Positions 2,868-59,313 of a DNA stretch of 64,000 bases are shown piece by piece. Each line of letters opens with the position of its first letter. Within the stretch, counting starts at the first letter, position 1. The position numbers and the translations under genes are program-made. Below the pieces are notes generated by a model. It worked only from the letters and a program-made list of their open reading frames with translations, was not told the DNA's origin and made no database searches. Source of the stretch: Primulina eburnea (taxonomy: Eukaryota > Streptophyta > Magnoliopsida > Lamiales > Gesneriaceae); the NCBI RefSeq assembly GCF_022965805.1, contig NC_133104.1, positions 40,530,682 through 40,594,681 on the forward strand. Direction: 5' to 3'.

Positions 2868-2872
2868 CAGAG

Positions 2873-15892: not shown

Positions 15893-15896
15893 AGGA

Positions 15897-28696: not shown

Positions 28697-29401
28697 TTAC
28701 AACAAAGATTTCGTCCCCCACGATACCGGCTCGACTCCGAGCATGTGAAACAAAACGACCTCAATCCCCACGAAAAATTTAGACTTATCCAAGAACCAAT
28801 CACAAAACCCACTGACGATACAATATCTTCTGTCAAACGGGGGCTGGTGGTGCCCCGCATGATGAGATGGTCCCAGAATGATTCCCGAATCCTGCAGAAC
28901 CACCACCACCGGCGGAAGCTTCCGCCTGGGGGTGTGAGCCCACGCATGGAATTGCTGGCTAAAGAACCCGCAACATGCGAATACAGACGTGAAAGCGAGC
29001 AGATTAAGGTCTTCACAGAACATGTTAACCGGCGAGAAAAGAAGAGTCGCCGCCACCCCTTGAATATAAATATTGGTGGCGACGTGGTGCTTCGCGAGAA
29101 TCCACGGCTGCTGATGGTGGCATTGAATCGCTTCAATCTGCGGTCCCAAGACTGGGTGTTTAGGGTCTCCATAGTTATCGATGGCCCAGTGGACGATTCC
29201 GGTTAGGAAATCAGCCAGTACGTAGCCCGCCACCGCGGCGAAAATGGACTCGATCCAGATCCTTAAATCGGTTGATTTACTTAAGAACATTGAAATGAAC
29301 TTGGCTACCGAAATCATCACGGTGGCGCACCCACTTGCAAAGCATGCAAGCTGAACCCTCGTCGATTGCCAACTCTCGTCTTCGAATTGTAGTGGTGGCA
29401 T
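28697..29401 (-). CDS. FAD4: FAD4-like / plasmanylethanolamine desaturase-family (TMEM189-type) desaturase
   Basis: Intronless 234-aa frame. It carries the family's histidine pattern for a di-iron desaturase: GIVHWAIDNYG (His71), CHHQQPW (95-96), AKHHVATN (105-106), QQFHAWAHT (152, 156) and SHHAGHH (180-185). Hydrophobic helices surround these motifs. In Arabidopsis, FAD4 makes the trans-delta3 double bond of 16:1 in plastid phosphatidylglycerol. The reading begins close to the catalytic domain, and Arabidopsis FAD4-type proteins are longer (about 280-320 aa as I recall), so a conventional transit peptide seems missing. That may mean a missed upstream exon, a truncated gene, or another location. 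A broken paralogue lies at 38470-39218. Confidence 0.87.
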   Translation of the reverse strand: MPPLQFEDESWQSTRVQLACFASGCATVMISVAKFISMFLSKSTDLRIWIESIFAAVAGYVLADFLTGIVHWAIDNYGDPKHPVLGPQIEAIQCHHQQPWILAKHHVATNIYIQGVAATLLFSPVNMFCEDLNLLAFTSVFACCGFFSQQFHAWAHTPRRKLPPVVVVLQDSGIILGPSHHAGHHQPPFDRRYCIVSGFCDWFLDKSKFFVGIEVVLFHMLGVEPVSWGTKSLL

Positions 29402-30470: not shown

Positions 30471-30993
30471 TGCTAAGTAATCAAGCCACCCATATTTGAA
30501 TTCAAAGCACACAATTTTGGAATTCAACAACACAATTAACACATGTGTTGATTAGTCAAAAATAATGAGGTAAGCCATGAGGTTTTATTTTTTGTTTTTT
30601 CCCTAAACTTTTCCTATAAATACCCATCCATTCTTCATTTCAAAATCACACCAAAAACACAAATCCTCTCATCTACAATCATAAGTGTAGAAGTGAGATA
30701 AAGGATTTAGTGTGAGATTTCTTAAGGAGTGTTTATCCTTGGAAGGAATAGGATTAGTGGAGAGAAAGTGAGTGTTAAAATCAGAGTGTTCTGAGTGAAA
30801 TACTTTGTATTCTCAATTCTCTTGTCTTCTTTGTTATTAATAAAGAAGTGATCTCCTTGAGAGGTTTAGAGTGGACGTAGCCCAATCTTGGGGTGAACCA
30901 CTATAAATATTGGTGTCCATCTTATTTATTGTTGATATCACTTATGATGTTCCGCTGCGATGTTACCTCGTTTATTTCCCTGATATCCCAACA
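30471..30993 (+). repeat. 5' LTR of the copia element
   Basis: TGCTAAGTAATC...ATATCCCAACA. Contains a TATA box TCCTATAAATACCC at about 30612-30625. Confidence 0.92.
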
Positions 30994-30995
30994 AC

Positions 30996-31008
30996 TGGTA
31001 TCAGAGCT
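30996..31008 (+). other. Copia primer-binding site, tRNA-Met type
   Basis: TGGTATCAGAGCT starts two bases after the 5' LTR. Confidence 0.88.
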
Positions 31009-31161
31009 AGATTCTCAAATACTATAGGAAGTCCTCGTATGCTCTGTGGTTGCAGCTTAGTCTGAACTTCCACATCAGAAAAGGCTTTCTAGACAGTATT
31101 AGGGAAGTGGTTCTTTTGTGTTCAGGCTTTGACGATTATTCGTTGGTAGCATTCACAAAAG

Positions 31162-34100: not shown

Positions 34101-35082
34101 TAGATGATATGTTGATTGTTGGCAAAGATGCTTCTGAAATCAAAGGCCTAAAGAAGCAACTAAGCAAGATTTTTTCAATGAAAGACTTGGGGCCAGCAAA
34201 AAGAATTATTGGCATGGAAATCCATCGAGACAGGTATGCCAAGAAGACCTGGTTGTCGCAGGAGAAGTATATTGAGAAGGTACTTCAGAGGTTCAACATG
34301 GACCAGGCCAAAGCGGTTGGATGTCCTCTTGCCAACCACTTCAAGTTGAACTCAAAGCAGAGTCCTATTACAGAGGATGAGGAAGAAGAAATGAAAAGTG
34401 TTCCATATGCTTCAGCTGTTGGAAGTCTGATGTATGCCATGGTATGTACTCAGCCGGATTTAGCTCATTCAGTAGGTGTAGTGAGTAGATTCCTTTCAAA
34501 ACCGGGAAAGGAACATTGGGCTGCAGTAAAATGGATATTCAGATATCTACGGGGAACCTCTAAACATAGATTGAGTTTTGGAGGATCCAGACTTGAGCTT
34601 GTAGGCTACACAGATGCAGATATGGCAGGAGATGTTGACTCCCGAAAATCCACATCAGGATACCTGATTACATTTGCAGGGGGAGCTGTGTCATGGCAGT
34701 CAAAGTTGCAAAAGTGTGTAGCATTATCAACCACTGAAGCGGAGTTCATTGCAGCAACTGAGGCATGCAAGGAGCTATTATGGATGAAAGGGTTTTTGGA
34801 GGAATTAAGTTTTGTGCAGGATCAATATAAGTTGTTCTGTGATAGTCAGAGTGCAATTCATCTTGGAAAGAATCCTTCAATGCATTCAAGATCAAAGCAT
34901 ATTGATGTACGCTATCATTGGATACGGGATGTATTGGAGAAGAGTTGTTAAAACTTGAGAAGATTCACACAGATGAAAATGGATCTGATATGATGACCAA
35001 GACATTGCCGAAATGGAAGTTGGAATACTGTAGAACTGTTGCAGGTTTGATCGAATCACAAAATGGGCTTGAGGGGGAGAAT
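31162..35082 (+). pseudogene. Copia gag-pol polyprotein with three lesions
   Basis: From ATG 31162 the frame gives gag ([11 protein letters not shown]), a CCHC knuckle ([14 protein letters not shown]), protease ([13 protein letters not shown]) and the integrase zinc region (LWHRRLGH...C-x2-C). A run of eight A at 32563-32570, one more than the frame allows, then shifts coding to the frame open to 34018. That frame holds the integrase core ([15 protein letters not shown]) and RT start (NKWVFRLK, QMDVKTAFLHG). An in-frame TAG at 34016-34018 precedes the RT box YVDDMLIVG and the RNase H signature (YTDADMAGD). A final one-base shift near 34935 moves the last about 45 codons out of frame. All domains are recognisable. 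Confidence 0.9.
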
Positions 35083-35605
35083 TGCTAAGTAATCAAGCCA
35101 CCCATATTTGAATTCAAAGCACACAATTTTGGAATTCAACAACACAATTAACACATGTGTTGATTAGTCAAAAATAATGAGGTAAGCCATGAGGTTTTAT
35201 TTTTTGTTTTTTCCCTAAACTTTTCCTATAAATACCCATCCATTCTTCATTTCAAAATCACACCAAAAACACAAATCCTCTCATCTACAATCATAAGTGT
35301 AGAAGTGAGATAAAGGATTTAGTGTGAGATTTCTTAAGGAGTGTTTATCCTTGGAAGGAATAGGATTAGTGGAGAGAAAGTGAGTGTTAAAATCAGAGTG
35401 TTCTGAGTGAAATACTTTGTATTCTCAATTCTCTTGTCTTCTTTGTTATTAATAAAGAAGTGATCTCCTTGAGAGGTTTAGAGTGGACGTAGCCCAATCT
35501 TGGGGTGAACCACTATAAATATTGGTGTCCATCTTATTTATTGTTGATATCACTTATGATGTTCCGCTGCGATGTTACCTCGTTTATTTCCCTGATATCC
35601 CAACA
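35083..35605 (+). repeat. 3' LTR of the copia element
   Basis: Appears identical to the 5' LTR by eye. Followed by the TGATC target duplication. Confidence 0.92.
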
Positions 35606-38469: not shown

Positions 38470-39218
38470 TTATTTGGAGCCGAAATCACTCCATGATCTT
38501 GGCCTAACTCCAAAAATACAGATTAGAATCATCTCCATTGCCAAGAAGAACTTGTATTTATCCAAAAACCTGTTCCAAACCCCACTCACGATGCAGTAAT
38601 GGCTGTCGAAAGGCTCGTGGTGGTGCGCCGCGTGCTCAGCCCTCGGCAGAATGATCCCGAAATCTTGCAGCGCCGCCACGAGCCGCGGAAGCTTCCCTTT
38701 TGGTGTGTGAGACCATGCATGAAGCTGCTGACAAAACATACCGCAACCGAAGAAAGCGGCAGCAAAAGTCAGCAAACTCGTGTTGGTGCAGAATATGTTC
38801 ATTGGTAATACGAAAATGGTGAAACTCGCCCCCCGACGTAGAGGTTGGTGGCGATGTGGCATTTCGTTATCGCCAACGGATGCTCGTGGTGACGAAGGAA
38901 ACCTTCTATCTGGGACCCGAAAACGAGAGTTTTGGCGCTGCCGTAGTTGTCGATGGCCCAATGGTATATCCCGGTGCCGAGGTCCCCTAGAACGTAGCCC
39001 ATGACGGCGGCGAAAATTGGATAGATCCAGCATCGGAGACCGGTTGATTGTCGAGAAATTAATATTAAGGATTTGGCTACAGAAATCACAAGTGTGGCGC
39101 ACCCAATTGATAACCAAACACGCTGAATGCTAGTTGGTGTTTTCCAGTTCTCTTCATCATAGAAGCGCTTTGGAGATGTTTTTGAAGCGGTCTTCTGTTG
39201 AGGCTCAAATTCAGCCAT
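38470..39218 (-). pseudogene. Second FAD4-like desaturase, single frameshift
   Basis: Starting at ATG 39218 the frame reads a FAD4-like N-terminus, HWAIDNYG and RHHEHP motifs. It goes out of frame at a six-G run (plus strand CCCCCC at about 38830-38835). One more base would restore it. The rest of the family sequence follows in the second frame: QQLHAWSHT, EHAAHHHEP and a normal C-terminus, stopping at 38470. Everything except the frame is conserved, so this is a very young pseudogene or a homopolymer sequencing error. Like its neighbour 9 kb away it is on the minus strand, intronless and short at the N-terminus, suggesting tandem duplication followed by transposon insertion between the copies. 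Confidence 0.82.
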
Positions 39219-39349
39219 TAATTGTTTTCGGAGCAAATGAATACAATAAATTCTATTGAAAAATACCAAGTTTTATGCAGAGAAAGGAAATTCTGGAACG
39301 ATATTTATGGGAAGAAACACATGCATACATATATAATATACGAGTAGAT

Positions 39350-39487
39350 GAGACGTTCTTATTCTGTTAGACGGGTCAATCTTATCAATATTCACAATAA
39401 AAAGTAATATTTTTTCATGAATAACTCAAATAAAATATATGTCTTACAAAATACGATCCGTGATACTGTCTCACATAAATTTTTACA
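39350..39487 (+). mobile_element. GAGACGGTCTCAC MITE family, copy 4 (degenerate)
   Basis: Recognisable by TTCACAATAAAAAGTAATAT and by GATACTGTCTCACATAAATT at its end. More diverged than copies 1 and 2. Lies upstream of the FAD4-like pseudogene. Confidence 0.65.
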
Positions 39488-40496
39488 ATAATATATACGT
39501 GTAATTGAGATTTTGAAGCACGTTGTTGGGTATGAAAGTTCTGACAAATTATGAATTTAATAAAATAAATTTATCATTTCTAACAAGTAATACGTGGTGC
39601 TTATCCGTTATCGTCAGAATATTGATATATTGATTTTTATGGGACACAAATTAAATTGATATGAAACTTAAGAAACAGCTTACAGCATAATCCTTTAATT
39701 TGTATTTCTTCGTTAGCTGCTGATATTAAGGAAATTTTATTTTTCAAGAATAATTAAATAAATAATGCAGGTGGAAGATGGCGATGATACAAAAAAAAAT
39801 TAACGAAATTAAGTTTCCGCAAAATTATATGTCAAGCTTGTTGAAAAATAATATTTAAAATGTGTGTATTGAATATTTGAATGTTGAAAATAAGAGTTGT
39901 AAATATTGAAAATTAGTGTGTGATGATGTAGGTAATGATAAATTTATTTTTTGGATTATTGGTAAAGATTTTCTATAAATAGATCTCTCAAAAGAAAAAT
40001 ATTATAAAGTGTGTAGTTTGGTAAATTTTGAGAGTTTGAGATTTTTACTTTTTTATCATAAATTTTTACTTTTTCATAAGAAAGCTTAATTAATATATAC
40101 AAATAGACAGTCCACGTATTATCGTTGAATTAGGAATTCGGATACCCGTTGCACACTCAATAAATGAAAACATCGAAAAAATCTGTGTTAAGTTTATTAC
40201 AATGTACTTTTCCTTTATCCTAGCTCATTACAAAAGTTTCGTTTTCAATAATTTAATTAATTTTCGAAATTGGACCGATCCTAATTTATGCACTAGGACC
40301 TAGCTGCCTCAGCCAAAATAGGTGGTTTGGTTTTGGTTGTTGGAACCGCAAAATTTTATTTAGTCATCTTATATATATATATATATATATATAACAAAAT
40401 CATAGTCCTCTAATTAGCATAAATAAGTTCAGATAATTTAAAAATAGTACTTGAAGAGAAAAGACAACGCGACCATATAATTTGTTGGAGCTTTTT
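39488..40496. other. Intergenic DNA, no gene seen
   Basis: AT-rich, with a short TA repeat at about 40371-40392. Confidence 0.5.
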
Positions 40497-41252: not shown

Positions 41253-43798
41253 TCAAGGCTCCAGTAGAATTTTTCTTAGCTCGTGGCTCTTTTCAGCAAC
41301 ACAACCAGAACCAAGTAGAGAAGTAATCCATATTTCATCAGACTTCACTGGTTCGTCGTCATCATTCCTGTGCCAACTCCAAAACGCATGGGTAGAGTTC
41401 ACTATCTTGAACTCGCCATGACCGAAACTTGCTTCGCGGAAGACAGACCACTCGGGCTGGGGATCCAGGTACCTATAAGATGATTTTCCAAAATTCAAAA
41501 GCTCAGTAATCAAATTAATCCTCCGTCTCATGCAATAATGATAACTCAAAAAAGATGTGGCAAATGATGGGGTAAAATAACTTAATTCAAGGATTCCACA
41601 ATGTAATCTAGGAACAAGAATAGTAATCTCTATTGGACTTGCCAGACAGAGTAATGATCGTTAAGTATGAGTGAAGGCGTTCAATAATAGATCTAGGCCA
41701 TAAATTTTCCTTTTCCATCATTGTTTCCAGTGGAAGGAGGTGGCGGGGGAATATGAGTCAAGTCGTAACCCAAAAATGGAACATCATGTAAAAAAACAGA
41801 AGAATTTAAGGTAAGCCTTCCACCTAAATAATTAGCTAAATTAACAGATTTTTTATTGATACTCAACATAATTCTTCCTTGTTAAAAAACGAACTTACTT
41901 GTGAGCTAAACCTTCACCATTTCCGCCATCACCAATTGTAATGTGAACAGCTCCACAGGGATCCACTTTACCATTGTACACACGCCTCTGTTAAAAACAA
42001 AAATTAAGTCTTCAACTGCTCAAAGATAATTAAGATGATAAAAGCAATAGGTTGAAATCATACCGAGCGCTCATAAGCATGCACATGGCCAGCAAAAATA
42101 ACATCCACACTAGCAGCATGAAGCAAGGGCTCCATCGCTGCCATCATGTCATCACCTTCACCTTGATGAGCCTCATTACTGTTATACCATGGTGCATGAA
42201 ACAACACAAGTAGCCAGGGTGTTCTTTCACGGTCCACCATTGAAAGATCAGTCTGCAAAAATTTTAAGGTAGAAAAGGATATAAAAATAAAAAACACAGT
42301 TTATAAAATAATGCTTCATCGGTAGCCTGATTATTGCCCCATTTGTAACCATATAAGCTCATTAACTGTTTCAAGATAAATAAAGAGATTTATTACCCCT
42401 GCTACTAACGCTTTATGAGAAAGTTCCTTAAGACAACTCCATCCGTAGCTGTTATATCTACATGCCAGTTCATGTGATACGTATATGCTGGTAAATGCAA
42501 TTCCTAGATATACATCAATAAATGAAGCATCTAATGTCGCTGCGTTAAACGTACCTTCAGCCAACTGTATTGAACGGAGTACTGATCATAATCAGTGTAC
42601 GAACCAAGCATTATGACATGAACTCCGGCCACGTCAAACGAATAGTAGAGATTCGAACTGGACCCACTCTCTTCATACGGCATCTTCCATCTTGAGTTAT
42701 AGGATTTGAAGCTGTCTATGAAGATTGGTATGTTCTCCTTCTCATGATTCCCTTGGGTCACCATCCACGGTCTTGCACTAGCGAGTGGCTGCACTAGTTC
42801 CCCAAACGTGTCCCATCTATGTTGTATATAATCCGCATAGGAAAGGTCTCCAGGAAGCATATGTACATCATATCTGCACTGGTCTATGTGGTCCAAAGTC
42901 GACTTGGTCCATCCAGTCTGACCTAAATCACCTGCCACAGCAAATGTAACAGGAAATTGAGAGGGTGGAGTTTTTAGTTGGAACTCAGTGCCCTCCCCAC
43001 CACATCTATAGAAATACAACGTGCCATATTCCAGGGGACCAATCACCGTATGGTGAATCTTCCCAGATCTATACAGTATATAACTATAACTAGTACTCTC
43101 TCCTTCAGCTTTAAAACTGTAATTTTGGGATGACGTTCCATATTCAACAATTGAAGGAGCATTTTTGTCGCTAGTTATCCATGATATCCGCATGTGTTTG
43201 TCTCCGGCCAAGGAGATGTGAACCTGCCATTGAAACCAATACACAGTCACAGTGACAGAATCGGTCAATCTTGACAAAAAAACGGAGTGCAGATTATATT
43301 TGGATTGGGCAACTTTTCAAAATTTTCTTTACTTCTCAGAAAAGATAACAGGAATCAGATCAAGTGTAATAAATTTAACCATAAAGTCAATTGTAGCAGA
43401 CCAATAGCAACCAACTTCCAACTTCCGACATATTAGCAAAAAGCACCTACGGCTCCGAATTCAATGTATTTTCCCTAAAAAACGCATCCATTAATTTTTC
43501 CTGTTTTTTCAAATAAATACGCTAGAGACAAAGAATTTAACTTCAAAACCTAAATCTTGCAAAGCCGAACACCCTAGAAATAGTGAAATGCAATCAAGCC
43601 ACTCTCTTTCCTGATCAATTAAATACCGACAAACTAACATTAAAAGGAAAAAGAAAAGAATTTCACCTGTTGAGGATGAGAAGAGGGCCTCGAATTCCAC
43701 GGGAAGTGAATCATTTTGCGCGGCGGCGGTCGAATGTACTCCGCCGCGGCGCCGATTGTCAGCACGACCAGAATCAAGACAACCAATTTAAAATTCAT
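41253..43798 (-). CDS. Purple acid phosphatase (PAP18/PAP22-like)
   Basis: Five minus-strand exons, 43667-43798, 42555-43223, 42064-42252, 41899-41987 and 41253-41472, give 432 aa. An N-terminal hydrophobic stretch (KLVVLILVVLTIGAAA) is a signal peptide. A fibronectin-like domain precedes the catalytic metallophosphoesterase domain, whose five metal-ligand blocks are intact: GDLG (about 142), GDLSY (169), GNHE (202-205), VLFH (283-286) and GHVH (322-325). Secreted or vacuolar enzymes of this family hydrolyse phosphate esters with a binuclear metal centre, often under phosphate starvation. Length and the HAPWYNSNEAHQGEG segment fit the PAP18/22 low-molecular-weight group. Regulation is not visible in the sequence. 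Confidence 0.92.
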
Positions 43799-43997
43799 GG
43801 CTTCGCGAAGTTTACATGAACCAGAATTGTCTGCTTTATGTGGTTATCTTGATTTTGACGTTCGAATGTGGAAAGTGGAGTCAGCGGGACAACACGATAT
43901 TGCCTGTATATTTATAATGGGACTGAACCACCCCGCCATCTTCGGCCTCAATCTGGCAACATTTCAATAATACTTTTTTAAGACAATATTTTAATAA

Positions 43998-44138
43998 TGA
44001 GTAGGTCTCATGTGACACCGTCTCACGGATCCCAATCTGTGAGACGGGTCAACTCTACACATATTCATAACTAAAAGTAATATTTTTAGCATAAAAAGTA
44101 ATACGACACGTGAGACCATCTCACACAAGTTTTTGCCT
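43998..44138 (+). mobile_element. GAGACGGTCTCAC MITE family, copy 5
   Basis: GAGTAGGTCTCATGTGACAC to CATCTCACACAAGTTTTTGC. An internal segment present in copies 1 and 2 (TTTTTCATGGATGACTCAAA) is deleted. Confidence 0.75.
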
Positions 44139-44164
44139 TTAAAGAGATGCATCAATATTTTTTT

Positions 44165-44318
44165 TGACAAAAATTTATGTGAGTCGTTGATCTTATTTTG
44201 TGAGACGGATCTCTTATTTGAGTCATCTATGAAAAAATATTATTTTTTATACTAAGAGTATTATTTTTTATTGTGAATATCGGTAGGGTGGATCCGTCTC
44301 ACAAAAGATCTACTCTTT
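44165..44318 (-). mobile_element. GAGACGGTCTCAC MITE family, copy 6
   Basis: Opposite orientation to copy 5 and only about 27 bp from it, so the two form a tail-to-tail pair next to the MULE-pararetrovirus element. Confidence 0.75.
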
Positions 44319-44413
44319 ATTTTGTTAATTATCGAATGAAATTGAATCACATTGTTTTTTTTTTTTCTGTTTTTTTCATGAAAATCAGGAATAAAAATAA
44401 TAATCACAAATCA

Positions 44414-44422
44414 CGATCACTT
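44414..44422 (+). repeat. Target-site duplication, left (9 bp)
   Basis: CGATCACTT, exactly repeated at 52643-52651. Nine bases is the characteristic duplication length of Mutator-superfamily transposons. Confidence 0.85.
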
Positions 44423-44555
44423 GGGGAAATTGCTCATAAATTCCTAAACCCAAACTTAACTTGTCCCTAGCCATCAAAAACTCTCTTTTAACTCCCTAAA
44501 CCTATAAAATTGACAAAACTACCCTTATTCTCTATTTTCTTTTAATTGATCCTCC
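44423..44555 (+). repeat. Left terminal inverted repeat of the MULE-like unit
   Basis: About 133 bp pairing with 52501-52642. Roughly 20 of the first 28 positions match the right repeat with one gap, and CCCTTATTCTCTATTTT matches near the inner end. Confidence 0.7.
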
Positions 44556-44567
44556 GCGCTTCAAAAA

Positions 44568-44583
44568 TGGTATCAGAGCATGG
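44568..44583 (+). other. Pararetroviral primer-binding site, tRNA-Met type
   Basis: TGGTATCAGAGCATGG, complementary to the plant initiator tRNA-Met 3' end. It conventionally marks position 1 of a caulimovirid genome and here lies only about 12 bases inside the left inverted repeat. Confidence 0.9.
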
Positions 44584-44876
44584 TTAATTTATTTCAAACA
44601 CGAAAATTTTATTATTACTAGTAATTAAATGTATGAGAAGGAGAATTTCGAAAAAATTATGAATCCGAACTTTAGTTCGAGAAGAATAATTTACAAGAAC
44701 TATTCCAATATTTTGGAATATACACAAGTTTATCTAACTATTGTTAGATATCAGAAACAGGAGAACAAAGGAAATTTATCTCCTGATTAAAGACAGCAGT
44801 GTTTGCAAAACCTTGCATACACAAAAGGTAGACTCTTACAGGCCGAAAAGACCAGATCTTCGATGATCTGTTAAAT

Positions 44877-45074
44877 ATGCCAGGGACTACCATCCAGTTC
44901 GAAATTGAACTTATTTCCCTGGAAATAAATCAATTAGAACAAGAATTACAGCGAAGTACATGCTTCACTGAACTCAGAACGAAATGTATGCGTTTACAAG
45001 GTTTAAAGAACCGTAAAAACATACTTCAAAATCTACTCAGAAGAAATTCTTCAGAGAACAATGGATCTGTATAG
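44877..45074 (+). CDS. Pararetrovirus ORF I, small protein of unknown function
   Basis: 65 aa, from the ATG at 44877 to TAG. It is Leu/Glu-rich with a probable coiled coil (ISLEINQLEQELQ) and a basic end. Position and size resemble the first small ORF of badna- and tungro-like viruses. The function is unknown and homology was not tested. Confidence 0.65.
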   Translation: MPGTTIQFEIELISLEINQLEQELQRSTCFTELRTKCMRLQGLKNRKNILQNLLRRNSSENNGSV

Positions 45075-45121
45075 ACAGAAGATCTACGAAGGGAAACAAC
45101 AGCACCCTCAGGTAAAAATTT

Positions 45122-45493
45122 ATGATTCAGAATAATAAATTTCTGGAGATAATACCAGACTCCTCTAAGCTCTCTCTGGATCTTAGAGAAATACAGAAAA
45201 CGGTACAAAATTATGGCAATATGCTATATTATGTACCTCAAAGGATTGAAAAGGTCCTAGAAAAACAAGAAGAAATTCTTGAAATATTAAAGGATATTCA
45301 AATAAGAATACAGAAACTAGAACAACAACCAAGTTTTAGTAGAAGAACTTCAGGAGGCTGGTTACCACCATCCTTTGGTACCGAACCTTTGTTACATCAA
45401 CAAGGGAAGGCCAGAGTGGTGTCAAAACCTTTAACTGAAGAAGAAAAGATGATCAATCTAATCAAGTCTGTCTCAGAAAAGAAATTGATCTGA
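45122..45493 (+). CDS. Pararetrovirus ORF II, virion-associated-protein-like
   Basis: 123 aa. The first half is a coiled coil (RIEKVLEKQEEILEILKDI), followed by a Ser/Pro/Gly linker and a charged C-terminus. This matches the layout of caulimovirid virion-associated proteins, which bind coat protein and nucleic acid. Its TGA overlaps the next ATG as TGATG, typical of coupled reinitiation. Identification rests on architecture and position. Confidence 0.65.
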   Translation: MIQNNKFLEIIPDSSKLSLDLREIQKTVQNYGNMLYYVPQRIEKVLEKQEEILEILKDIQIRIQKLEQQPSFSRRTSGGWLPPSFGTEPLLHQQGKARVVSKPLTEEEKMINLIKSVSEKKLI

Positions 45494-46938
45494 TGACAAC
45501 TTTAGAAAGGATTGGTTTGGAGGATCTACAAGAGCTTGCGGAATCTTTCGCAAATCTCAAAGTAGTAGATCTAAAGATGAATACAGCAGTAGGTGAAACA
45601 CCACCTGCAATAACCTGGTCATCTTCTCAGGAACCACCAAGGGAAAGTATGGGATCTCATAATGTAAATATGAGAGAATCTCAGACTGATTTCCATACCG
45701 GTGGAGGATCACACCCAGCGGGAACAAGGGCAAGGAGAACTCAAATCCCTTTGCACCAAACACCCTATGGGAAAACTGTTTTAGATCCTATACATCCTTA
45801 CGGGGTTATGCTTAACCTTGATGTATTGGACTTCAAAAACAGAGAAGATCTCATAGACGATTGGACATCTGCTATGAGGATCGCAGCAGGAACACTTGAT
45901 CTCAACAAAGAAGGATTCATTAAACTTTTGGAAATGAGTCTTATGGGATCAGTAAAAATTGCTTGGGACATGACTTCATCAGACATGAAAGAGTCAGTTC
46001 TAGTTGGGGAATCTCTTAGTGAGATCGCTGGAAAAATGGCTACCCTATTCAAAGCACACTTTATAGGGGTAGACTATTTCAATAGTCAAGATACAGAGAA
46101 AAAGAAAAAATATACTCAAGCTCTGTATAGTCTTGAATTACATGATATATGTTTGGTAGATGAATACATTATGTTATTCACCAAATATAGATGGAATTCA
46201 GGAGTCGAAGAAGATATAGCTATGCAGCTTTTCTTCGCAAAAATGCCAAGCCTTTGGAGAGAAATGCTCATAAGGGAATACGTACCTGGTAATCCAGATA
46301 CATTGGCAAGAAGAGCCTCTTTCCTTAAAGGGAAATTAGCAGAATGGTGTCACATGGCAGCATTACAAAAGAATTACAAACGACTAAGGGGTATCAACAA
46401 AAGAACTCCTTTGTGTTGTAAGGAAAATGATCTTCCAACAATTATTGGAAGTAAACCACAGAAGCATAAAAGGAAAAGTTTTAGGACTCATCCTTATGCA
46501 CGAAGTGGAAGAAGTTCTTGGAAACCAAGAACCGTATGGTCTAGACAGAAAGCCAGATCTTATAAATCTGGACAAAGAAGCGGACCATCGAGAAGTAGGA
46601 TATCATCCCAGGCATCGAGTTCATCTCGAAACACAGGAAGAACACCTACAAAGAAAACTTTCAGAAGAGCTCATACGCGAGCTAATGAAAGTTTCAAAGA
46701 TTGTAATTGCTGGACATGTGGAGCAAGAGGTCATATCTCGACCAATTGTCCAGAGAATGAGAAAAGAGGTATTAAACGTTTTGATCCTACTCCGGATATT
46801 GAAGAAGCAGTTTATTACCAAGATCTTATTCAAGTATACCAATTTGAGGATATCGCCTCAGATGAAAGTATATATGAAGAAGAAGAAGTCGTCTTAAGTC
46901 AAGAAGAATCTGATGGAACAGAATCGGAATCTGACTGA
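45493..46938 (+). CDS. Pararetrovirus coat protein
   Basis: 481 aa, intact. A conserved capsid core in the middle third (about residues 95-300) is followed by a strongly basic Arg/Ser/Lys-rich stretch (about 325-400). Next come a CCHC zinc knuckle (CWTCGARGHISTNC, about 415-428) and an acidic tail (YEEEEVV, SESD), the standard order of caulimovirid coat proteins. The zinc knuckle binds the pregenomic RNA during packaging. The 3' end overlaps the movement-protein ORF by 26 bases in another frame. No internal stop or frameshift. Confidence 0.85.
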   Translation: MTTLERIGLEDLQELAESFANLKVVDLKMNTAVGETPPAITWSSSQEPPRESMGSHNVNMRESQTDFHTGGGSHPAGTRARRTQIPLHQTPYGKTVLDPIHPYGVMLNLDVLDFKNREDLIDDWTSAMRIAAGTLDLNKEGFIKLLEMSLMGSVKIAWDMTSSDMKESVLVGESLSEIAGKMATLFKAHFIGVDYFNSQDTEKKKKYTQALYSLELHDICLVDEYIMLFTKYRWNSGVEEDIAMQLFFAKMPSLWREMLIREYVPGNPDTLARRASFLKGKLAEWCHMAALQKNYKRLRGINKRTPLCCKENDLPTIIGSKPQKHKRKSFRTHPYARSGRSSWKPRTVWSRQKARSYKSGQRSGPSRSRISSQASSSSRNTGRTPTKKTFRRAHTRANESFKDCNCWTCGARGHISTNCPENEKRGIKRFDPTPDIEEAVYYQDLIQVYQFEDIASDESIYEEEEVVLSQEESDGTESESD

Positions 46939-48148
46939 AGACGAGGTGTTTCGACACGAAACACATGAAGATTTGTCTGGGTTTTTTAGCCAGACAACAA
47001 TATCTCATAACATGGTTCAAAGAATCATGAGAGAAAATCCAAGTCTACAGAGATACCAAGGTTTCTCTGCAGGACAGGTAGAAAAGTTCTTAGGAAGTCT
47101 TGGCCTAAGAAGCAGAAAGCATCATCTAATCTATAAAGTTTCTATAAGGGAAATGGCAATCCCAATGGAACTTACAGGAAATAGAATGGAGATGCAATTA
47201 ATTCCTTCCGAAGAAATAAAGGAGGAATTACAAAAACTCAAGATAGAAGTAGCAAGGACTATGTCCTGGATTCATATAGGAGCAATCCAGATTATGATAA
47301 AGGCTACTTTCAAAGAAGGGATAGATTCACCAATTGATATCGCCATATGCGATAAAAGAATGGGGAATCTACAAGATTCAGTACTGGGAACAATCTCAGG
47401 AAACCTCTGTGCAGGAAAAATTGTAGGAGTAATTTATCCAAGGATAGCCTACAACCTGGCAGATCGAGATTTCAGCCGAGCCTTGACATTACATCAGAAC
47501 TTCAAGGAAAAAAGGTTGATGAAAGAAGGCAATAGACCATATTCTATTACCTATCAGATTTCATATGCTCTATCTAATACACATCATTCTGAATTGTTTA
47601 TTAGAAACGAGTTTATTGAAATCCCTGAGATATTTGGAAAAGTTGCGCAGGCAATTTATCCAGAAAGAATTGAGTTTTCTTTAATACAGGAAACAGATAT
47701 CCAGATCCAAGACAAACCGATTCTACAGAGAAATCAAAGTCTTAGACTGGAACCAAGAAGACTATCTTTTCAAGGAGATAGAATTACAAGTTACAGATGG
47801 GATAAAAAGCCTGTCATAGAAACCCAACAGGAGTTGAAAAGTTTTTCTACAATAGGAAAGCTCAGATGCCCAGAAGGTTGGAAGGAAGTAGAAATAGTAT
47901 TTGACATTACAAAACAAAGGAATCAATTTCCTTGTAATTCAATATACTATTTGGAACAACCGATAATAGGAACTTATCAAGGACTGATTAATATCGGAGA
48001 ATTGGAGGTTCATATTCAAGGAATTCCAGGAAAAGAATCAGAACGACTGATTCTTGGGCTAGAGTTTCTCGAGGAACATAAACCTTGGAAACGTCTAGAG
48101 TATGGAATGGAGTTTATGGCAGAAGATAAAATGTGGAAAATCCAATGA
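46913..48148 (+). CDS. Pararetrovirus movement protein (30K type) with C-terminal extension
   Basis: 411 aa. Residues about 50-250 carry the caulimovirid movement-protein signature, including WIHIGAIQIMIKATF, GIDSPIDIAI and the LADRDF box that contains the family's conserved Asp. Movement proteins form tubules through plasmodesmata. The last about 110 residues continue past the usual core and include RLILGLEFLEEHKPW, which loosely resembles the end of a retropepsin fold; I cannot assign it. The stop overlaps the Pol start as ATGA. Intact. Confidence 0.82.
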   Translation: MEQNRNLTEDEVFRHETHEDLSGFFSQTTISHNMVQRIMRENPSLQRYQGFSAGQVEKFLGSLGLRSRKHHLIYKVSIREMAIPMELTGNRMEMQLIPSEEIKEELQKLKIEVARTMSWIHIGAIQIMIKATFKEGIDSPIDIAICDKRMGNLQDSVLGTISGNLCAGKIVGVIYPRIAYNLADRDFSRALTLHQNFKEKRLMKEGNRPYSITYQISYALSNTHHSELFIRNEFIEIPEIFGKVAQAIYPERIEFSLIQETDIQIQDKPILQRNQSLRLEPRRLSFQGDRITSYRWDKKPVIETQQELKSFSTIGKLRCPEGWKEVEIVFDITKQRNQFPCNSIYYLEQPIIGTYQGLINIGELEVHIQGIPGKESERLILGLEFLEEHKPWKRLEYGMEFMAEDKMWKIQ

Positions 48149-50169
48149 CCACAAGTCCATTCTCCATATACATTCCAGTAGGAATGTTGTATGAACAATA
48201 TAAGGCAGAATACTTTGCTGCATATATTGATTCAGGTGCTGGAATATGTACAGCAAAACGAGGAGTTTTTCCAAATAATTTGGAAGAAGAATTACCCAAG
48301 ATTGCTGGAAGAGATTTTTCCAGAAGAATCTTAATCTTATGTAAAGGGATTAAGATGACTGAAATCATGATTGGCGGTGCTGGACAAACACCTTGGTACA
48401 AGGTAAAGACACCACCAATTTATTTTCATGATACAGGAGCTGACATATTGTTAGGAAATAATTTCCTACAAATGTTCAAATCCTATACACAGGAAAATGA
48501 GACTAGAAGATTAGTATTCACAACACCATGTGCTCACAAAATCATAGTCCAGAGACTTCGGGAGGCATTTTACAGAAAATTGCCAATCCAGTTTCGCAGC
48601 AAGCGTGGTGATTCAGGAAAACTTCTGAACCCAAAAATGAAGGATTCAAGACGGTTTGGAGAAACAATGCTCCAGTTAAGAGCAGATAAGGAACTCCAAC
48701 CAGAAGATATAGAATGCCTTAAGATAACTCTACACACAAATGAAGTAGAGTTTGAATCTAAGGTATCACTGGAAGATGTCAAGAAGAGGATCAAAGAAAA
48801 TTATAACGAAGATCCCTTGGCATGGTGGGACAGAAATCAACTCAGGGCTTGCCTTAAAATCAAAGAAGGCAAAGAGTATGAATTTGTCCGTTGTAAACCC
48901 ATCCCAATGAACATCATTGATCAAAGGGATATGCAGATTATAATCAAGGAACATTTGGACCTTGGATTAATCAAAGCAGGTATGTCACCATATAGCAGTC
49001 CAGGTTTTCTGGTAAGAAACCATGGTGAAATTAAACGAGGAAAACCCAGATTGGTTATTAATTATCAAGAAATTAATAAGATTCTGGAGTTTGATGGGTA
49101 TTTTATACCTAGTAGAGAACACTTGATTAGTTGCATTCGCAATGCCAAGATATTCTCTAAATTTGATTGCAAGTCTGGATTCTATCAGATTCGGATGCAG
49201 GAAGAAAGCAAGAAATTCACAGCTTTCTCCACACCTCAAGGACATTATATTTGGGAAGTATTACCAATGGGATTGGCTAACTCACCCCAAATATTTCAAA
49301 GAAAGATGGATAATCTTTTCAAAGATTATTTCAAGTTTATGTTTGTTTACATCGACGATGTTTTAATAGCATCCAAAGATATGAATGAACATGTTAAACA
49401 TTTGGAGATTTTCTCTAATGTTTGCAAGAAAGAAGGACTGGTTTTATCTGAAAAGAAAGCAGTCATTGCTACAAGAAAGATTGAATTCCTCGGAATTGAA
49501 ATCGATGAGTCAGGAATAATTCTGCAAGAGCACATAGTAGAAAAAGTGCAGAATTTTCCAGAAAATCTCAAAGACAAGAAGCAACTTCAAAGTTTTTTAG
49601 GGGTTGTTAATTTTGCTGGGATGTTTATTAAAAACCTAGCAAAACACAGGAAGGTGTTCAGTCCATTATTGAAAAAGGATGCTAGATTTATATGGACAGA
49701 CGAACACACAAAAGGACTTATCCATTTAAAGAAGGTTTGCAAAAATCTTCCAAAGATGGATATTCCTCAAGACGAGGATGATCTGGTATTATATACCGAT
49801 GCCAGTGATCATTGGTGGGCTGCAGTATTAACAAAGCTCACACCAGATGGAGAACAACCATGCAGATATTGTAGTGGGTTATTCTCAGATGCAGAAGCCA
49901 TAAGATGGCATATCAACGAAAAGGAATTTTATGCAGTAAAGAGGGCTTTTGAAAAATGGCCATTATTTTTACTTGCAAAGAAATTCACTTTGAAAGTTGA
50001 TAACACTCAAGTTAAAGCCTTTTTGAGGAATAGAATTGAGTCTAAACCGGAGAAGGCTAGATTATTACGATGGCAAGCTTTATGTCAAAATTATATTTTT
50101 GATATTATGATAATAAAATCTCATGAAAATATTCTTGCAGATTTTTTAACAAGAGATGGACAGCATTGA
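48145..50169 (+). CDS. Pararetrovirus Pol: aspartic protease, reverse transcriptase, RNase H
   Basis: 674 aa from the ATG at 48145; a GTG twelve bases upstream is less likely. Order: protease with the catalytic DSGAG (about residue 29-33) and HDTGADILLG; RT with RLVINYQEIN, FSKFDCKSGFYQ, LPMGLANSP and the catalytic YIDDVL box; RNase H with YTDASDHWWA, NEKEFYAV and VDNTQ. It ends after RNase H with no integrase, as expected for a pararetrovirus. All key motifs are present and the frame is uninterrupted. It makes viral DNA from pregenomic RNA. Confidence 0.92.
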   Translation: MTTSPFSIYIPVGMLYEQYKAEYFAAYIDSGAGICTAKRGVFPNNLEEELPKIAGRDFSRRILILCKGIKMTEIMIGGAGQTPWYKVKTPPIYFHDTGADILLGNNFLQMFKSYTQENETRRLVFTTPCAHKIIVQRLREAFYRKLPIQFRSKRGDSGKLLNPKMKDSRRFGETMLQLRADKELQPEDIECLKITLHTNEVEFESKVSLEDVKKRIKENYNEDPLAWWDRNQLRACLKIKEGKEYEFVRCKPIPMNIIDQRDMQIIIKEHLDLGLIKAGMSPYSSPGFLVRNHGEIKRGKPRLVINYQEINKILEFDGYFIPSREHLISCIRNAKIFSKFDCKSGFYQIRMQEESKKFTAFSTPQGHYIWEVLPMGLANSPQIFQRKMDNLFKDYFKFMFVYIDDVLIASKDMNEHVKHLEIFSNVCKKEGLVLSEKKAVIATRKIEFLGIEIDESGIILQEHIVEKVQNFPENLKDKKQLQSFLGVVNFAGMFIKNLAKHRKVFSPLLKKDARFIWTDEHTKGLIHLKKVCKNLPKMDIPQDEDDLVLYTDASDHWWAAVLTKLTPDGEQPCRYCSGLFSDAEAIRWHINEKEFYAVKRAFEKWPLFLLAKKFTLKVDNTQVKAFLRNRIESKPEKARLLRWQALCQNYIFDIMIIKSHENILADFLTRDGQH

Positions 50170-50626
50170 CATTGATGCTATTATCAAGATGCAGAGGCAT
50201 TTGAGGGAACACCTTGAAATGCTTCAAACCGAGTTCAACAAGTTAGCTGTTAACGCAGAAGTTGCGGGAAGGCTACAACAAGCTGATAAGAGAATTGTCT
50301 CTGATCGAATTACAGGATGTTTACAGGCATATACTCAATTATGGTCTGTAACGCAAAGGCCTATCCTCCAGGGCATTGAGAGACCACTGGTTTCTCAAAT
50401 GGAGAGTTTTCGAGTACAGGACTCTATATCTGTAGCGGGGGATTCAAATACCCCTTGCACAAGTGTTAAGTCGGGATCATCACGAGATGAGTCGGCTGAA
50501 ACAAAAATTGAGATTCCTGATCCTTATCTTGAGTCCTCAAGCCAACCCTTCACCTCGGGGATTGAAGAGGGAGAGATCAACCTTAGGCCTCGTATTGACA
50601 AAGGCAAAACTAAGGATTGGTACTAA
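50156..50626 (+). CDS. Pararetrovirus ORF VI, N-terminal part
   Basis: 156 aa. The ATG lies inside the last codons of Pol (14-base overlap). A helical N-terminus (MDSIDIDAIIKMQRHLREHL) is followed by a Ser/Glu-rich linker. It ends at a TAA at 50624-50626. The next part of what looks like the same protein is in the +1 frame, so I interpret this as the front half of a transactivator/inclusion-body-like protein. Confidence 0.65.
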   Translation: MDSIDIDAIIKMQRHLREHLEMLQTEFNKLAVNAEVAGRLQQADKRIVSDRITGCLQAYTQLWSVTQRPILQGIERPLVSQMESFRVQDSISVAGDSNTPCTSVKSGSSRDESAETKIEIPDPYLESSSQPFTSGIEEGEINLRPRIDKGKTKDWY

Positions 50627-50627
50627 T

Positions 50628-51503
50628 GAAGGTGTAATTTCTCCATTTCAGGTTTATCAGCAGAATTGGGAGAAATTAAAAACACGTATTGGCATTAACC
50701 CAGCTACAAATAGGGTTGATGTTTCAGGAAAATATCCAAGGGTATGGATGAAACCTAATTCATATCCCAAGGAGGTTAAAGCTTGGTATGAATTTGGGGC
50801 TCTTGCCTCAGTTTATACTACATCACCCAGCTTTCCGGAAATCTCAGGTTTACCAAAGTGGATCCAGGAAGCTGTTCACGAGACTTGGGCAAACAATGAT
50901 TATTTGTCCAGAGGAGATGTTTTGGAGCTATACTTCTTTAGTGCAGCACCAGAACCAGCAGGGAAAGGTTCTCACGAAGCCTTTCATTTCATCAAGCTAA
51001 GGAGGCCGGATACAAATGTCCAAAAATTTATCAAGGATCCTCCAACAGAAGAAACACCCCTGGTTGCTTCAATCACTGAAGATGACATTTCTACCAGAAG
51101 AGCTTGGGGTTTATGGGTCTGTCTTACTGAGATGGACAAAGTCAAGTTTCCGTTCAAGTTCTACAATCATTCAGTGAACGGATCATTCCTGTTGAATACC
51201 ATGACAGGAAAAACAACAAGTTTCGCAGAAGATTTATTTGAAAAGAAAAGAAATCTCTTGTGGAACAGCAAGCTACCGGCAAGCAAAGAGACTCGCCGAA
51301 AGTTCTGTAATATGGCACACATAGGAAGATGGTCGGAGAACATCTGCTCTGAATGCCAAATACAGAAAGAACCAGAGTTCGGTAAAGGTTTCAAACCAAG
51401 ATCTGATCGGAAGCATTTTACCGAAGCAAGGACAAGTGGGGAAGGACCACATGCACATTTTCCTCGAGGATACAAAAAACCGAAGATTCCTCGACAAAAT
51501 TAA
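50628..51503 (+). CDS. Pararetrovirus ORF VI, C-terminal part (transactivator/inclusion-body-like)
   Basis: This frame is open from 50463 to 51503, and about 290 residues after 50628 look like the conserved part. Features include FGALASVYTTSPSFPEI, WGLWVCLTEMDK and FYNHSVNGSFLL, then a Cys/His-containing region and a basic end. Position after Pol and before the promoter is that of the translational transactivator (P6-type) ORF, which supports reinitiation on the polycistronic RNA and forms inclusion bodies. No good ATG opens it, so it is separated from its front half by a frameshift near 50620. Alternatively a spliced mRNA could use the CCATTTCAG acceptor at about 50643-50651. Confidence 0.6.
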   Translation, partial: EGVISPFQVYQQNWEKLKTRIGINPATNRVDVSGKYPRVWMKPNSYPKEVKAWYEFGALASVYTTSPSFPEISGLPKWIQEAVHETWANNDYLSRGDVLELYFFSAAPEPAGKGSHEAFHFIKLRRPDTNVQKFIKDPPTEETPLVASITEDDISTRRAWGLWVCLTEMDKVKFPFKFYNHSVNGSFLLNTMTGKTTSFAEDLFEKKRNLLWNSKLPASKETRRKFCNMAHIGRWSENICSECQIQKEPEFGKGFKPRSDRKHFTEARTSGEGPHAHFPRGYKKPKIPRQN

Positions 51504-51753
51504 AAGGGACATGTGACCCTCCATTATAAAAAGCAGGACCACTACCATGTGAGTGGTAGAATCAAGACAACCACTAATTAGTGGTAAAGGACAAATAGAC
51601 CACCAATAACAAATGGTAGATGACTCAGCAAAGCATTGGATACCAATCTAAAAGGAATCCAATAAGTAAAAGTAAATTAACTGGTCCCGAAAATTCATCC
51701 ATAAATAAGGACAGAAAGGAAACCAGTTAACACACCAGAATCAAAACTTAAAA

Positions 51754-51954
51754 ATGTATCACGTATATTTGAAAGTTTTGAAAAGAAGGATAACATACAA
51801 GAGGAAAGAGGCAGAAGCTCTTAAATGGTTAGTAAATCATTTCAAAGAGTATAAAAAAGATGAAATTACTGTCGATATCCTGGAAACTCATCGTCAATGG
51901 TATCTAAAAGAGATAAAGGAGGATGAGAAGTTAATGTCCAGATTAATAATCTAG
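51754..51954 (+). CDS. Small ORF in the pararetrovirus intergenic region
   Basis: 66 aa, Lys/Glu-rich (KRRITYKRKEAEALK). It follows a TATA-like CATAAATAAGG about 50 bases upstream. No family recognised. It could be a real short viral gene or chance; coding is plausible because the surrounding leader is otherwise stop-rich. Confidence 0.35.
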   Translation: MYHVYLKVLKRRITYKRKEAEALKWLVNHFKEYKKDEITVDILETHRQWYLKEIKEDEKLMSRLII

Positions 51955-52045
51955 ACAGGGACCCTTCAACCACTACATGGTCCCCAAGCAAGCTGTAAAG
52001 GCTAATGAAGATTTGAAATCCGAGTTTCAAATCCGAAAGAGCCTT

Positions 52046-52055
52046 CTATAAATAA
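52046..52055 (+). promoter_or_regulatory. Pararetrovirus TATA box
   Basis: CTATAAATAA in the intergenic region, downstream of all ORFs, where caulimovirids place the promoter for the terminally redundant pregenomic RNA. Confidence 0.7.
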
Positions 52056-52230
52056 AGCCGGAAGAAGGAAGTGAAGATCATCAAATATTTTCTGCATTTC
52101 TTTCATACAAGGTTGTAATATTTTCTTTCAAGTTTTATGTGTGTTAAGAGTTCAGCTACGATAAGTAGCTAAAACAAGTTTCTCCTCCTCTACAGGAGGT
52201 TACTATGTAATAAATAAATATTTGTGTTTG

Positions 52231-52236
52231 AATAAA
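52231..52236 (+). terminator. Pararetrovirus poly(A) signal
   Basis: AATAAA about 180 bases after the TATA box, as needed for a short terminal redundancy with first-pass bypass. Confidence 0.6.
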
Positions 52237-52500
52237 AGAGATCTTTGCTCTTAGCCCCTATCATGTATTATTTTCAAAAAATTTAATCTTTTGCTGTACG
52301 CTCTAAGGTAGGAAACGAATTAGAGCTGTGCTAAGTATTGCTGAAGGAATCTGCTTAGTAACCATCGGTTGCGATCGTGTGGTTGGACTGTGAGGAGCAG
52401 TTCGTAAAAAACGGTGGATACAACCCGGTGGTACTCTAGTCAAAAAGGTAAAAGATTCAATTTATTTTACGGAAGCATGATGGGCCTTTTACTACAAAAA

Positions 52501-52642
52501 AGGAAAATCAATTATTTAAAATAAAGATATAAGGGCAAACTTGGAAATTTGAAGGATATGGGGAGTTGAAACAAAGTTTTAATGGGGTAAGGAGTAAAGA
52601 GGAAGTTGAGAATGGAAATAGGGAGTTTTTGACAAAATCCCC
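52501..52642 (-). repeat. Right terminal inverted repeat of the MULE-like unit
   Basis: About 142 bp pairing imperfectly with 44423-44555. Ends TTTGACAAAATCCCC. Confidence 0.7.
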
Positions 52643-52651
52643 CGATCACTT
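52643..52651 (+). repeat. Target-site duplication, right (9 bp)
   Basis: CGATCACTT, identical to 44414-44422. Neighbouring bases on both sides differ, so the match is exactly nine. Confidence 0.85.
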
Positions 52652-54237
52652 CGATATTTGATATAAAATTATAATAATATATAAACAACATTCAATTTTC
52701 AGTCTCTCTCATATTCAAAATTCTCCTATAAATAATAATAAAAATCTATTTTTCTTAAATATTTTCCAAATTAGTCTCAAAATAGAAAAATCATGAATAA
52801 CGGTACAACACCTAACATCAATGTAAACAATAATGAATTAAATTTGAAAAATGTTATTTTGTTGTGATTGTCTTGTTGTGCCCAAACAAACATATTAGAA
52901 TTTATTAACTTTGATTTGAATCTTAATTATTGCTTTATTTATTTGTATTTGTATGATCTGACTTATATTTTATATTTGAAAAAAACAATGTTGTTATTAT
53001 TTTCGAATCAATTTGAATTTATATTTTAATATCTTAGCGTTATAGTTGATCATTCACCAAAAAATGGCAAAACGATCGAAACCTCCCCAAAACCGCTCAA
53101 AGCTTCAAATCTAATTTCACACGTAAAACCACAATTTTTTTAAAAATAATAATAACAATAGCATATGACAATTTGGTTTGAATTTTCTGAAGAAAAAAGT
53201 GGCACACCGTGATCATCCCTACATCATTATGTTATGATTATTAGTTTACCATCAAATTTTATGTAATAAGTATAATTATATTAATTTTCATATTTACTTA
53301 GGTCTAAGATTATAATTTACATCTCGGGTGCAATGTTAACTTGCATGAGATGTTTATTTCACAACATTTATGCATATTAATTTTATTTTTTATGTTTAAT
53401 AACAAATTTCAACTAAAACTTATTATTTATTTCACAATCATAAAATATTATTTATAGACAGTTAAATTTATAAGAAACCTAAGTCAAATACTTTGAAAAA
53501 CAAAAACATATTCCACAGGGGCAATATATAATATTTATGGGTTGTATTATATACATGCAATGCTCTCCTAGTTCCCATTAAAAGTTAAATGATACTTAAA
53601 CTTTCTTGATTAATTTGGTCCAAATAAAAGATTCTACTAAAAAAATAGTAAAGATTAGACATATGGAGAGATATTGTTTGATAATAATGATAAGATTAAA
53701 TGAAAAATCAAGAATATAAAATATAACATATGCTTTAAAAATACAAACATAAATACATAATCAGAGTTGATATTTACACTTCATTTTATGTTATCTACAT
53801 TTTACTTTATGTATAAATTATGTTTCAAATTTATTCACAAATGAAGTACAAATAATAAGAAACGAAACTTAAATATCAACTTCCATACATATAACCTTTA
53901 AAAAATACTGATAGGTTCTAAACTCACTTGTAACGATTTAAAAAAAAAATGACTTGATAACGTGTTTGATTAAATGTCTAGGATGAAAGAGCTTCCCAGC
54001 ATTGAATGCAAATGTAACCCATGTTTTCAAGAAATTGTGAAGACAACGGTGATGGCTAGAATCTCAGGCCACACGCAAGCAATTATGCAAATGGCTTGAA
54101 GTCAAAACAACTCGTAGAATGAATGAAAATCTTGTATAATTTGATCGAAGAAGTATCGTGCGGTAGATAGAAGATTGTATAGAGTTCTCATTAACCACAA
54201 ATACATGCCTGAGCAAATTTTCCTAAATGGACAAGGC
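52652..54237. other. AT-rich intergenic DNA, no gene seen
   Basis: About 1.6 kb of very AT-rich sequence without supported coding or repeat structure. The last part should include the 3' UTR of the next gene. Confidence 0.5.
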
Positions 54238-58321: not shown

Positions 58322-58563
58322 TTTAGCTCAATTGGTACCAGGATTGTGCCAAGTATCTATATATCCATGTGATCTTGGGTTCGATCCTGGGGAGGCACAT
58401 ACTTAAGTTCATGGGCTTAAGAGTTCTATGAGTAGCCTGTACTATCAATGTGGCACCACAGGGTAGGGTACGGCCTACCGGGCTTATGGGCCAAGTCACT
58501 TGGTAGATCGGGGCAGTGGAGTACGGTCCACTAGGCCTGTAATGGGTCGTTACAATAAAAGGC
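58322..58563 (+). mobile_element. tRNA-derived SINE, copy 1
   Basis: Has a perfect pol III A box (TAGCTCAATTGG, 58324-58335) and B box (GTTCGATCC, 58379-58387) and ends in GGGTCGTTACAATAAAA. Its body is more diverged and slightly shorter than copies 2, 4 and 5. Confidence 0.8.
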
Positions 58564-58593
58564 GCCTTTTATTGTAACGACCCATTACAGGCC
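58534..58593. repeat. 60-bp perfect palindrome at a SINE tail-to-tail junction
   Basis: Symmetry centre GGC/GCC at 58563/58564. The arms read GGCCTGTAATGGGTCGTTAC then AATAAAAGGC. Imperfect symmetry continues outward into the two SINE bodies, so the whole could form a long cruciform. Confidence 0.9.
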
Positions 58594-58841
58594 CAGTGGA
58601 CCGCCCATACGGCCCACTGCCCCAATCGACCCAAGGCTATCCCGATCTTGTGACTTGGCCCGTAGGCCCAGTGGGCTTGCCCACCCTGTGGTGTCACTCA
58701 CGGGCTTTCCATAGGCGTCGTATGGGTTACTCATAGAACTCTTAAGCCCATGAACTTAAGTTTGTGCCTCCCTAGGATCGAACCCAAGATCAAATGGATA
58801 TACAGATACTTGGCACAATCCTGGTACCAATTGAGCTAGTC
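58564..58841 (-). mobile_element. tRNA-derived SINE, copy 2
   Basis: Full-length in reverse: B-box complement GGATCGAAC near 58777 and A-box complement CCAATTGAGCTA near 58828-58839. Tail-to-tail with copy 1. Confidence 0.8.
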
Positions 58842-58880
58842 GGTCTACTGGGCCTGTAATGGGTCGTTACAATAAAAGGC
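58842..58880 (+). mobile_element. SINE 3' tail fragment, copy 3
   Basis: Only the last about 40 bases of the SINE (GGGCCTGTAATGGGTCGTTA and following) remain, forming the left arm of the second palindrome. Confidence 0.75.
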
Positions 58881-58908
58881 GCCTTTTATTGTAACGACCC
58901 ATTACAGG
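58853..58908. repeat. 56-bp perfect palindrome, second copy
   Basis: Same centre GGC/GCC (58880/58881) and same arms as the first palindrome, 317 bp downstream. Indicates duplication of a tail-to-tail SINE unit. Confidence 0.9.
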
Positions 58909-59045
58909 TCCAGTGGACCGCTCGTACGGCCCACTGCCCCAATCGACCCAAGACTATCCCGATCTTGTGACTTGGCCCGTAGGCCCAGTGGGCTTGCCCA
59001 CCCTGTGGTGTCACTCACGGGTTTTCCATAGGCGTCGTATGAGCT
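58881..59045 (-). mobile_element. tRNA-derived SINE, copy 4 (head truncated)
   Basis: Nearly identical to the 3' part of copy 2 but lacks the A and B boxes. It abuts the head of copy 5. Confidence 0.75.
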
Positions 59046-59313
59046 ACTAGCTTAATTGGTACCAGGATTGTGCTAAGTACCTATATATCCATGTGGTCTT
59101 AGGTTCGATCCTAAGGAGGCACAAACTTAAGTTCATGGGCTTAAGAGTTCTATGAGTAACCCATACGACGCCTATGGAAAGCCCGTGAGTGACACCACAG
59201 GGTGGGCAAGCCCACTGGGCCTACGGGCCAAGTCACAAGATCGGGATAGCCTTGGGTCGATTGGGGCAGTGGGCCGTATGGACGGTCCACTGGGCCTGTA
59301 ATGGGTCGTTACA
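59046..59313 (+). mobile_element. tRNA-derived SINE, copy 5
   Basis: A box TAGCTTAATTGG (59048-59059), B box GTTCGATCC (59103-59111), full body, ends GGGTCGTTACA without the AATAAAA tail. Confidence 0.8.

Follow-up and report, generated by a model that had tools for sequence, protein, structure and literature searches.

How does the genome of a pararetrovirus, a virus without an integrase, come to lie between the ends of a DNA transposon? The question is raised by an 8.2-kb unit at positions 44414-52651 of a 64-kb stretch of Primulina eburnea DNA (contig NC_133104.1 of assembly GCF_022965805.1, positions 40,530,682 to 40,594,681; the whole stretch is hereafter the window, and its own numbering is used throughout). 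The unit consists, in this order, of the sequence CGATCACTT, a 133-bp inverted repeat, a 7.93-kb caulimovirid genome, a 141-bp inverted repeat and a second copy of CGATCACTT. We favour a single integration event, in which caulimovirid DNA of full length entered the centre of a short Mutator-like element (MULE); to this reading we give a probability of about two in three. According to a 2023 review, accounts of the entry of integrase-less caulimovirids into plant genomes are speculative (PMC10377300), and in the literature, judged by titles and abstracts, we found no described case of a pararetrovirus associated with a MULE or any other transposon. The locus offers a clean case, in which the viral ends look natural, the element that preceded integration is defined and the order of events can be tested.

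The initial annotation of the unit, made from the sequence, had reported a perfect 9-bp duplication outside imperfect inverted repeats that begin with GGGG on both sides of the virus, and both observations were reproduced. The two copies of CGATCACTT, at 44414-44422 and 52643-52651, are exact, and they are the only two in the whole 64 kb when both strands are checked. Aligned from GGGGA, positions 44423-44555 and the reverse complement of 52502-52642 give a score of 87, with 97 identities in 145 columns, 16 of which are gap columns; the identity of the arms is 67% with gaps and 75% over ungapped columns. The same score compares with a mean of 34 (sd 5.5, maximum 55) for 500 mononucleotide shuffles, and was reached by none of 5917 random segments of the window (maximum 57). 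Direct pairs of exact 9-mers lying 0.3-20 kb apart number 18705 in the window, and 146 of these also have four matching outer bases (a set for which 150 bp had to be available on each side); by score the CGATCACTT pair ranks third of the 146, after two that both lie within a single palindromic array at 58.5-59.3 kb. The probability that nine given flanking bases match by chance is about 7e-6.

Many plant MULEs have G-rich ends. Marks of the superfamily also include a target-site duplication (TSD) of 9-11 bp and terminal inverted repeats (TIRs) of typically 100-500 bp (PMC3310237); with arms of 133 and 141 bp and an exact TSD of 9 bp, the unit resembles non-autonomous MULEs and miniature inverted-repeat transposable elements (MITEs) of the TIR-only type, from which it differs in that its interior is a virus genome. 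Judged by their sequence, the repeats bear the hallmarks of a non-autonomous MULE. The identity of 67% falls below the 80% used in PMC3310237, a cut-off for the curation of families and not a biological definition. It would be very surprising if the arms instead belonged to another kind of inverted-repeat element, arose by chance or formed a virus-related structure. The low identity of the arms is in keeping with such an origin, as are the failure to see further members of a family within the window and the lack of a transposase domain in the seven open reading frames (ORFs) scanned, out of 37 of at least 50 amino acids (aa) that overlap 44400-52660. Against it, the GGGG ends adjoin the exact 9-bp duplication, a coincidence whose joint chance is very small, and the arms lie outside the viral unit that runs from the primer-binding site (PBS) to the leader. 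The initial annotation had named a viral origin of the repeats as one way in which its proposal would fail; this is disfavoured, the repeats being placed beyond both the PBS and the end of the leader and abutting the duplication.

The inner edges of the repeats had also been described as almost touching the virus, and indeed the similarity of the arms comes to within 12 bp of the left viral end and about 1 bp of the right one. With arms of 400 bp, the best alignment extends into the virus (199 and 207 bp; score 94, identity about 63%), but when only the inner 200 bp are aligned the score is 24, below the shuffle mean of 26.8, and 366 of 500 shuffles do as well or better, so the extension is noise. 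The similarity of the repeats ends at the virus; on one side, 7-12 bp of other DNA lie between repeat and virus.

The virus spans 44568 to about 52501. It opens on the left with TGGTATCAGAGC, which we take to be the tRNA-Met primer site and hence the conventional first base of caulimovirid numbering. On the right, a long leader hairpin is predicted, which stops 16 nt short of the right viral end (the fold of 51870-52500 has a z of -7.4, and 0 of 20 shuffles were as stable). With the PBS at one end and the leader hairpin at the other, both look like natural viral DNA ends, and the insert looks like a single genome length that starts with the primer site, finishes with the leader and was opened at the minus-strand discontinuity. 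Measured from the PBS to 52500 it is 7933 bp long, inside the range of 7.1-9.8 kb given for genomes of the Caulimoviridae (PMC10377300). The rice endogenous caulimovirids are alike in this respect, their ends being described as often in the intergenic region or at discontinuities (PMC526188). The motif CAAAAA is present at both viral ends (44562-44567 and 52495-52500), which suggests microhomology or a short terminal overlap.

In the history that we favour, a short non-autonomous MULE of about 285 bp, with hardly anything besides its two inverted repeats, would have inserted upstream of a PAP18-like gene, creating the 9-bp duplication. Later, a caulimovirid DNA of full length, open at the minus-strand discontinuity, would have been end-joined into the centre of the element. 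There the two arms could pair as a hairpin or cruciform and then break, and the short A-run found at each end of the virus may have served as microhomology in the joining. The unit has MULE-like ends, a duplication and a caulimovirid gene content, with PBS and leader at the viral ends and the virus in a central position; from this anatomy we infer the order of events, the hairpin break, the microhomology joining and the absence of any later movement of the composite. Since the similarity of the TIRs reaches the virus and does not continue inside it, the break would have been at the centre of the element, where a simple model puts 4.5% of random single breaks. Without the virus, the element has almost no loop, and the joined arms are predicted to fold into one hairpin with 95 arm-to-arm pairs and -36.7 kcal/mol (100 mononucleotide shuffles: mean -20.0, sd 3.9, lowest -29.8 kcal/mol). 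A break at the tip of this modelled hairpin is plausible. For (TA)n sites it has been proposed that breaks in hairpins or cruciforms take up caulimovirid DNA as filler (PMC10377300, PMC4241990), and the locus would widen that idea to the foldback of a transposon. Several points weigh against an integration of this kind. The true circular junction of the virus is fixed by no external relative, so its right end is placed from structure; neither an empty sibling element nor a second full copy of the TIR (blastn) was seen elsewhere in the 64-kb window; with arms 67% alike when gaps are counted, the hairpin would be weak; and the site lacks the (TA)n tract that is usual in published cases.

The initial annotation had offered two histories, integration of the virus into a TIR-only MULE or capture of the virus by a MULE that then moved with it. 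MULE-type ends with a 9-bp duplication round a full-length caulimovirid genome were upheld, and the anatomy favours the first history; movement as a unit is the less likely of the two. In the second history, the MULE would have taken up the viral genome elsewhere and transposed with it to the present site, so that a DNA transposon would disperse a pararetrovirus. The matching outer ends of the TIRs and the perfect TSD round the whole unit speak for it, captured DNA in MULEs is known (PMC3310237, PMC8903248), and Teratorn is a virus riding a cut-and-paste transposon (PMC10175614). However, natural viral termini are not required of captured DNA, yet both ends appear natural; no second copy was seen within the window; the scanned ORFs carry no transposase domain; and the duplication can be older than the virus, left by a virus-free element. 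We consider an arrival of the virus by transposition unlikely. As the outer ends and the duplication look intact, the unit may nevertheless be movable by a transposase supplied in trans from elsewhere.

The nearly complete absence of non-viral DNA between the arms bears on another possibility, namely that a larger MULE excised or broke, that templated repair halted at both TIRs, and that viral DNA replaced the interior as filler. Both TIRs are retained and the interior is nearly all viral, as such an abortive gap repair would leave them, and of two widely held ideas on caulimovirid capture, one invokes filler DNA (PMC10377300). Repair of this sort predicts unequal arms, whereas the arms of 133 and 141 bp end at equivalent alignment columns, and beyond 7-12 bp there is no trace of a former interior; we regard it as improbable. 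Three further arrangements were rejected on the anatomy. A MULE jumping into the virus would not have GGGG ends that point away from the virus, which places the virus inside the element; two independent neighbouring elements would not share a single 9-bp duplication at their outer ends; and two neighbouring MULEs that captured a viral locus already resident, as in the tandem model for Pack-TYPE elements, would be expected to have taken in random flanking DNA, of which just 7-12 bp is present.

The locus shares features with other systems. Pack-MULEs and Pack-TYPE elements likewise hold foreign DNA between TIRs with a TSD outside, but their described cargo consists of fragments of coding genes, and the words 'virus' and 'viral' do not appear in the main text of PMC8903248. 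A 2023 review gives Teratorn, which fuses piggyBac with a herpesvirus in fish, as the first example of a transposon serving as vehicle for a virus (PMC10175614). In Teratorn, as in the unit, a whole virus genome lies within a cut-and-paste transposon, here in transposon ends with a TSD and with the last viral ORFs lacking a family assignment; Teratorn is active and encodes its transposase, whereas in the unit described here neither a transposase domain, in the seven ORFs scanned, nor a sign of movement was seen. If the unit were a mobile composite, a host MULE transposase could move a whole pararetrovirus genome, an integrase-less virus would gain a cut-and-paste route through the germline, and the unit would be a plant counterpart of Teratorn. 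Dispersed composites would make the transposon a vehicle for the virus, and the plant genome would have a novel means of spreading one.

The viral gene content agrees with that of endogenous caulimovirids (copies in Sesamum and Gesneriaceae, rice ERTBV and florendoviruses) in the presence of coat protein (CP), movement protein (MP) and protease-reverse transcriptase-RNase H and in the absence of an integrase, for which no domain was found in the five main ORFs. Here, unlike in those, the virus is a full-length single unit with long open frames, set inside a DNA transposon and bounded by the duplication of the transposon, instead of lying in a (TA)n tract. The genes are ordered CP, MP, polymerase, and the six ORFs form a compact row with three junctions that overlap by 14-26 bp (Table 1). 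The CP assignment includes a match to PF22909 that barely exceeds the cut-off (5.5e-6) and one to PF00098 that stays under it (E 0.002). The closest CP is from Henckelia pumila (76% identity over 76%, among 34 matches). For the polymerase, within the best 120 of 684 matches, the closest named kin are Sesamum copies (61% over 96% of the query) and another relative reaches 80% over 69%; kin of the virus are found in Sesamum, Henckelia and Dorcoceras. The same best 120 of 684 matches include a related cluster, P0019, whose 133 member sequences share a 58.5-Mb contig and which may be a strongly amplified relative. No relative was found in the viral contigs searched with the polymerase and with a 12-row alignment.

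By motif and prediction, the virus has a tRNA-Met PBS, a structured leader, a promoter and a poly(A) signal, the meaning of which in caulimovirids is set out in PMC5902531. The TATA box listed in Table 1 is our choice of putative promoter among several, further TATAAA motifs lying at 51525 and 51850; AATAAA recurs at 52051 and, within the right repeat, at 52520. The copy is single and carries its promoter and signals on the right, so transcripts from that promoter would be expected to run out of the unit across the right repeat. The initial annotation called the virus complete, and the PBS, the CP, MP and protease-reverse transcriptase-RNase H in long open frames, the TATA box, the AATAAA signals and the leader hairpin agree with this; completeness is not proved, in that the ORF at the position of the transactivator has no Pfam match up to E = 5 and no NCBIfam match, and a transactivator, a protein that just some caulimovirid genera have, was not detected. 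This 346-aa ORF and the 156-aa ORF overlap by 164 bp in different frames and may be two genes or one interrupted gene. The long uninterrupted frames suggest that the virus arrived recently.

Table 1. Coordinates of the features of the unit in the window
Feature	Position	Strand	Basis
TSD, left copy, 9 bp, CGATCACTT	44414..44422	.	exact repeat
Left TIR, begins GGGGAAATTG, 133 bp	44423..44555	+	alignment to right arm
Left junction, 12 bp: GCGCTTC (7 bp, unassigned) and an A5 run of ambiguous side	44556..44567	+	
PBS, tRNA-Met type, TGGTATCAGAGC	44568..44579	+	single + strand occurrence in 44400-52660
ORF, 123 aa	45122..45493	+	no match in family searches
CP ORF, 481 aa, CCHC zinc knuckle	45493..46938	+	PF22909, PF00098
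MP ORF, 411 aa	46913..48148	+	PF01107 (3.1e-31)
Protease-reverse transcriptase-RNase H ORF, 678 aa from GTG (first ATG is codon 5)	48133..50169	+	PF02160, PF00078, PF17917, PF17919
ORF, 156 aa	50156..50626	+	no match in family searches
ORF, 346 aa, transactivator position	50463..51503	+	no homology detected; no match in family searches
TATA box, putative pregenomic promoter	52047..52052	+	motif
AATAAA signals, three, overlapping or neighbouring	52209..52236	+	motif
Long leader hairpin, predicted	52257..52484	+	fold of 51870-52500
Right TIR, 141 bp, inner end at viral A-run	52502..52642	-	alignment to left arm
TSD, right copy, CGATCACTT	52643..52651	.	exact repeat

MULEs prefer the 5' regions of genes, and the position of the element is in keeping with this preference, about 1.1 kb upstream of a PAP18-like exon (42531-43277) that matches a Dorcoceras hygrometricum protein with 91% identity over 92%, others among the best 120 of 881 matches being at most 85% identical. 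Outside the unit, a tblastn search of the window for other viral pieces returned just two retrotransposon reverse transcriptase regions and a weak match (E 0.006) in a Copia gag region. Two retrotransposons with long terminal repeats (LTRs) are present in the window: a Gypsy element with a chromodomain at 1067-12733, with LTRs of 1801 bp that are 99.3% identical and an internal duplication (5589-7015 and 7380-8806, 99.9% identical), and a Copia element at 30471-35605, with LTRs of 523 bp that are 100% identical, so that this insertion is probably very recent. A small family of inverted repeats with the motif GTGAGACGG is found at 15882-16078, 26834-27316, 39363-39489 and 43996-44309, and one of its copies stops about 105 bp to the left of the target duplication. 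A palindromic tandem array at 58324-59313 contains copies in both orientations that are 75-97% alike. Genes or pieces of genes with a lipid desaturase domain lie at 28697-29401 and 38470-39269; their DNA is about 66% alike, and the second runs across two frames.

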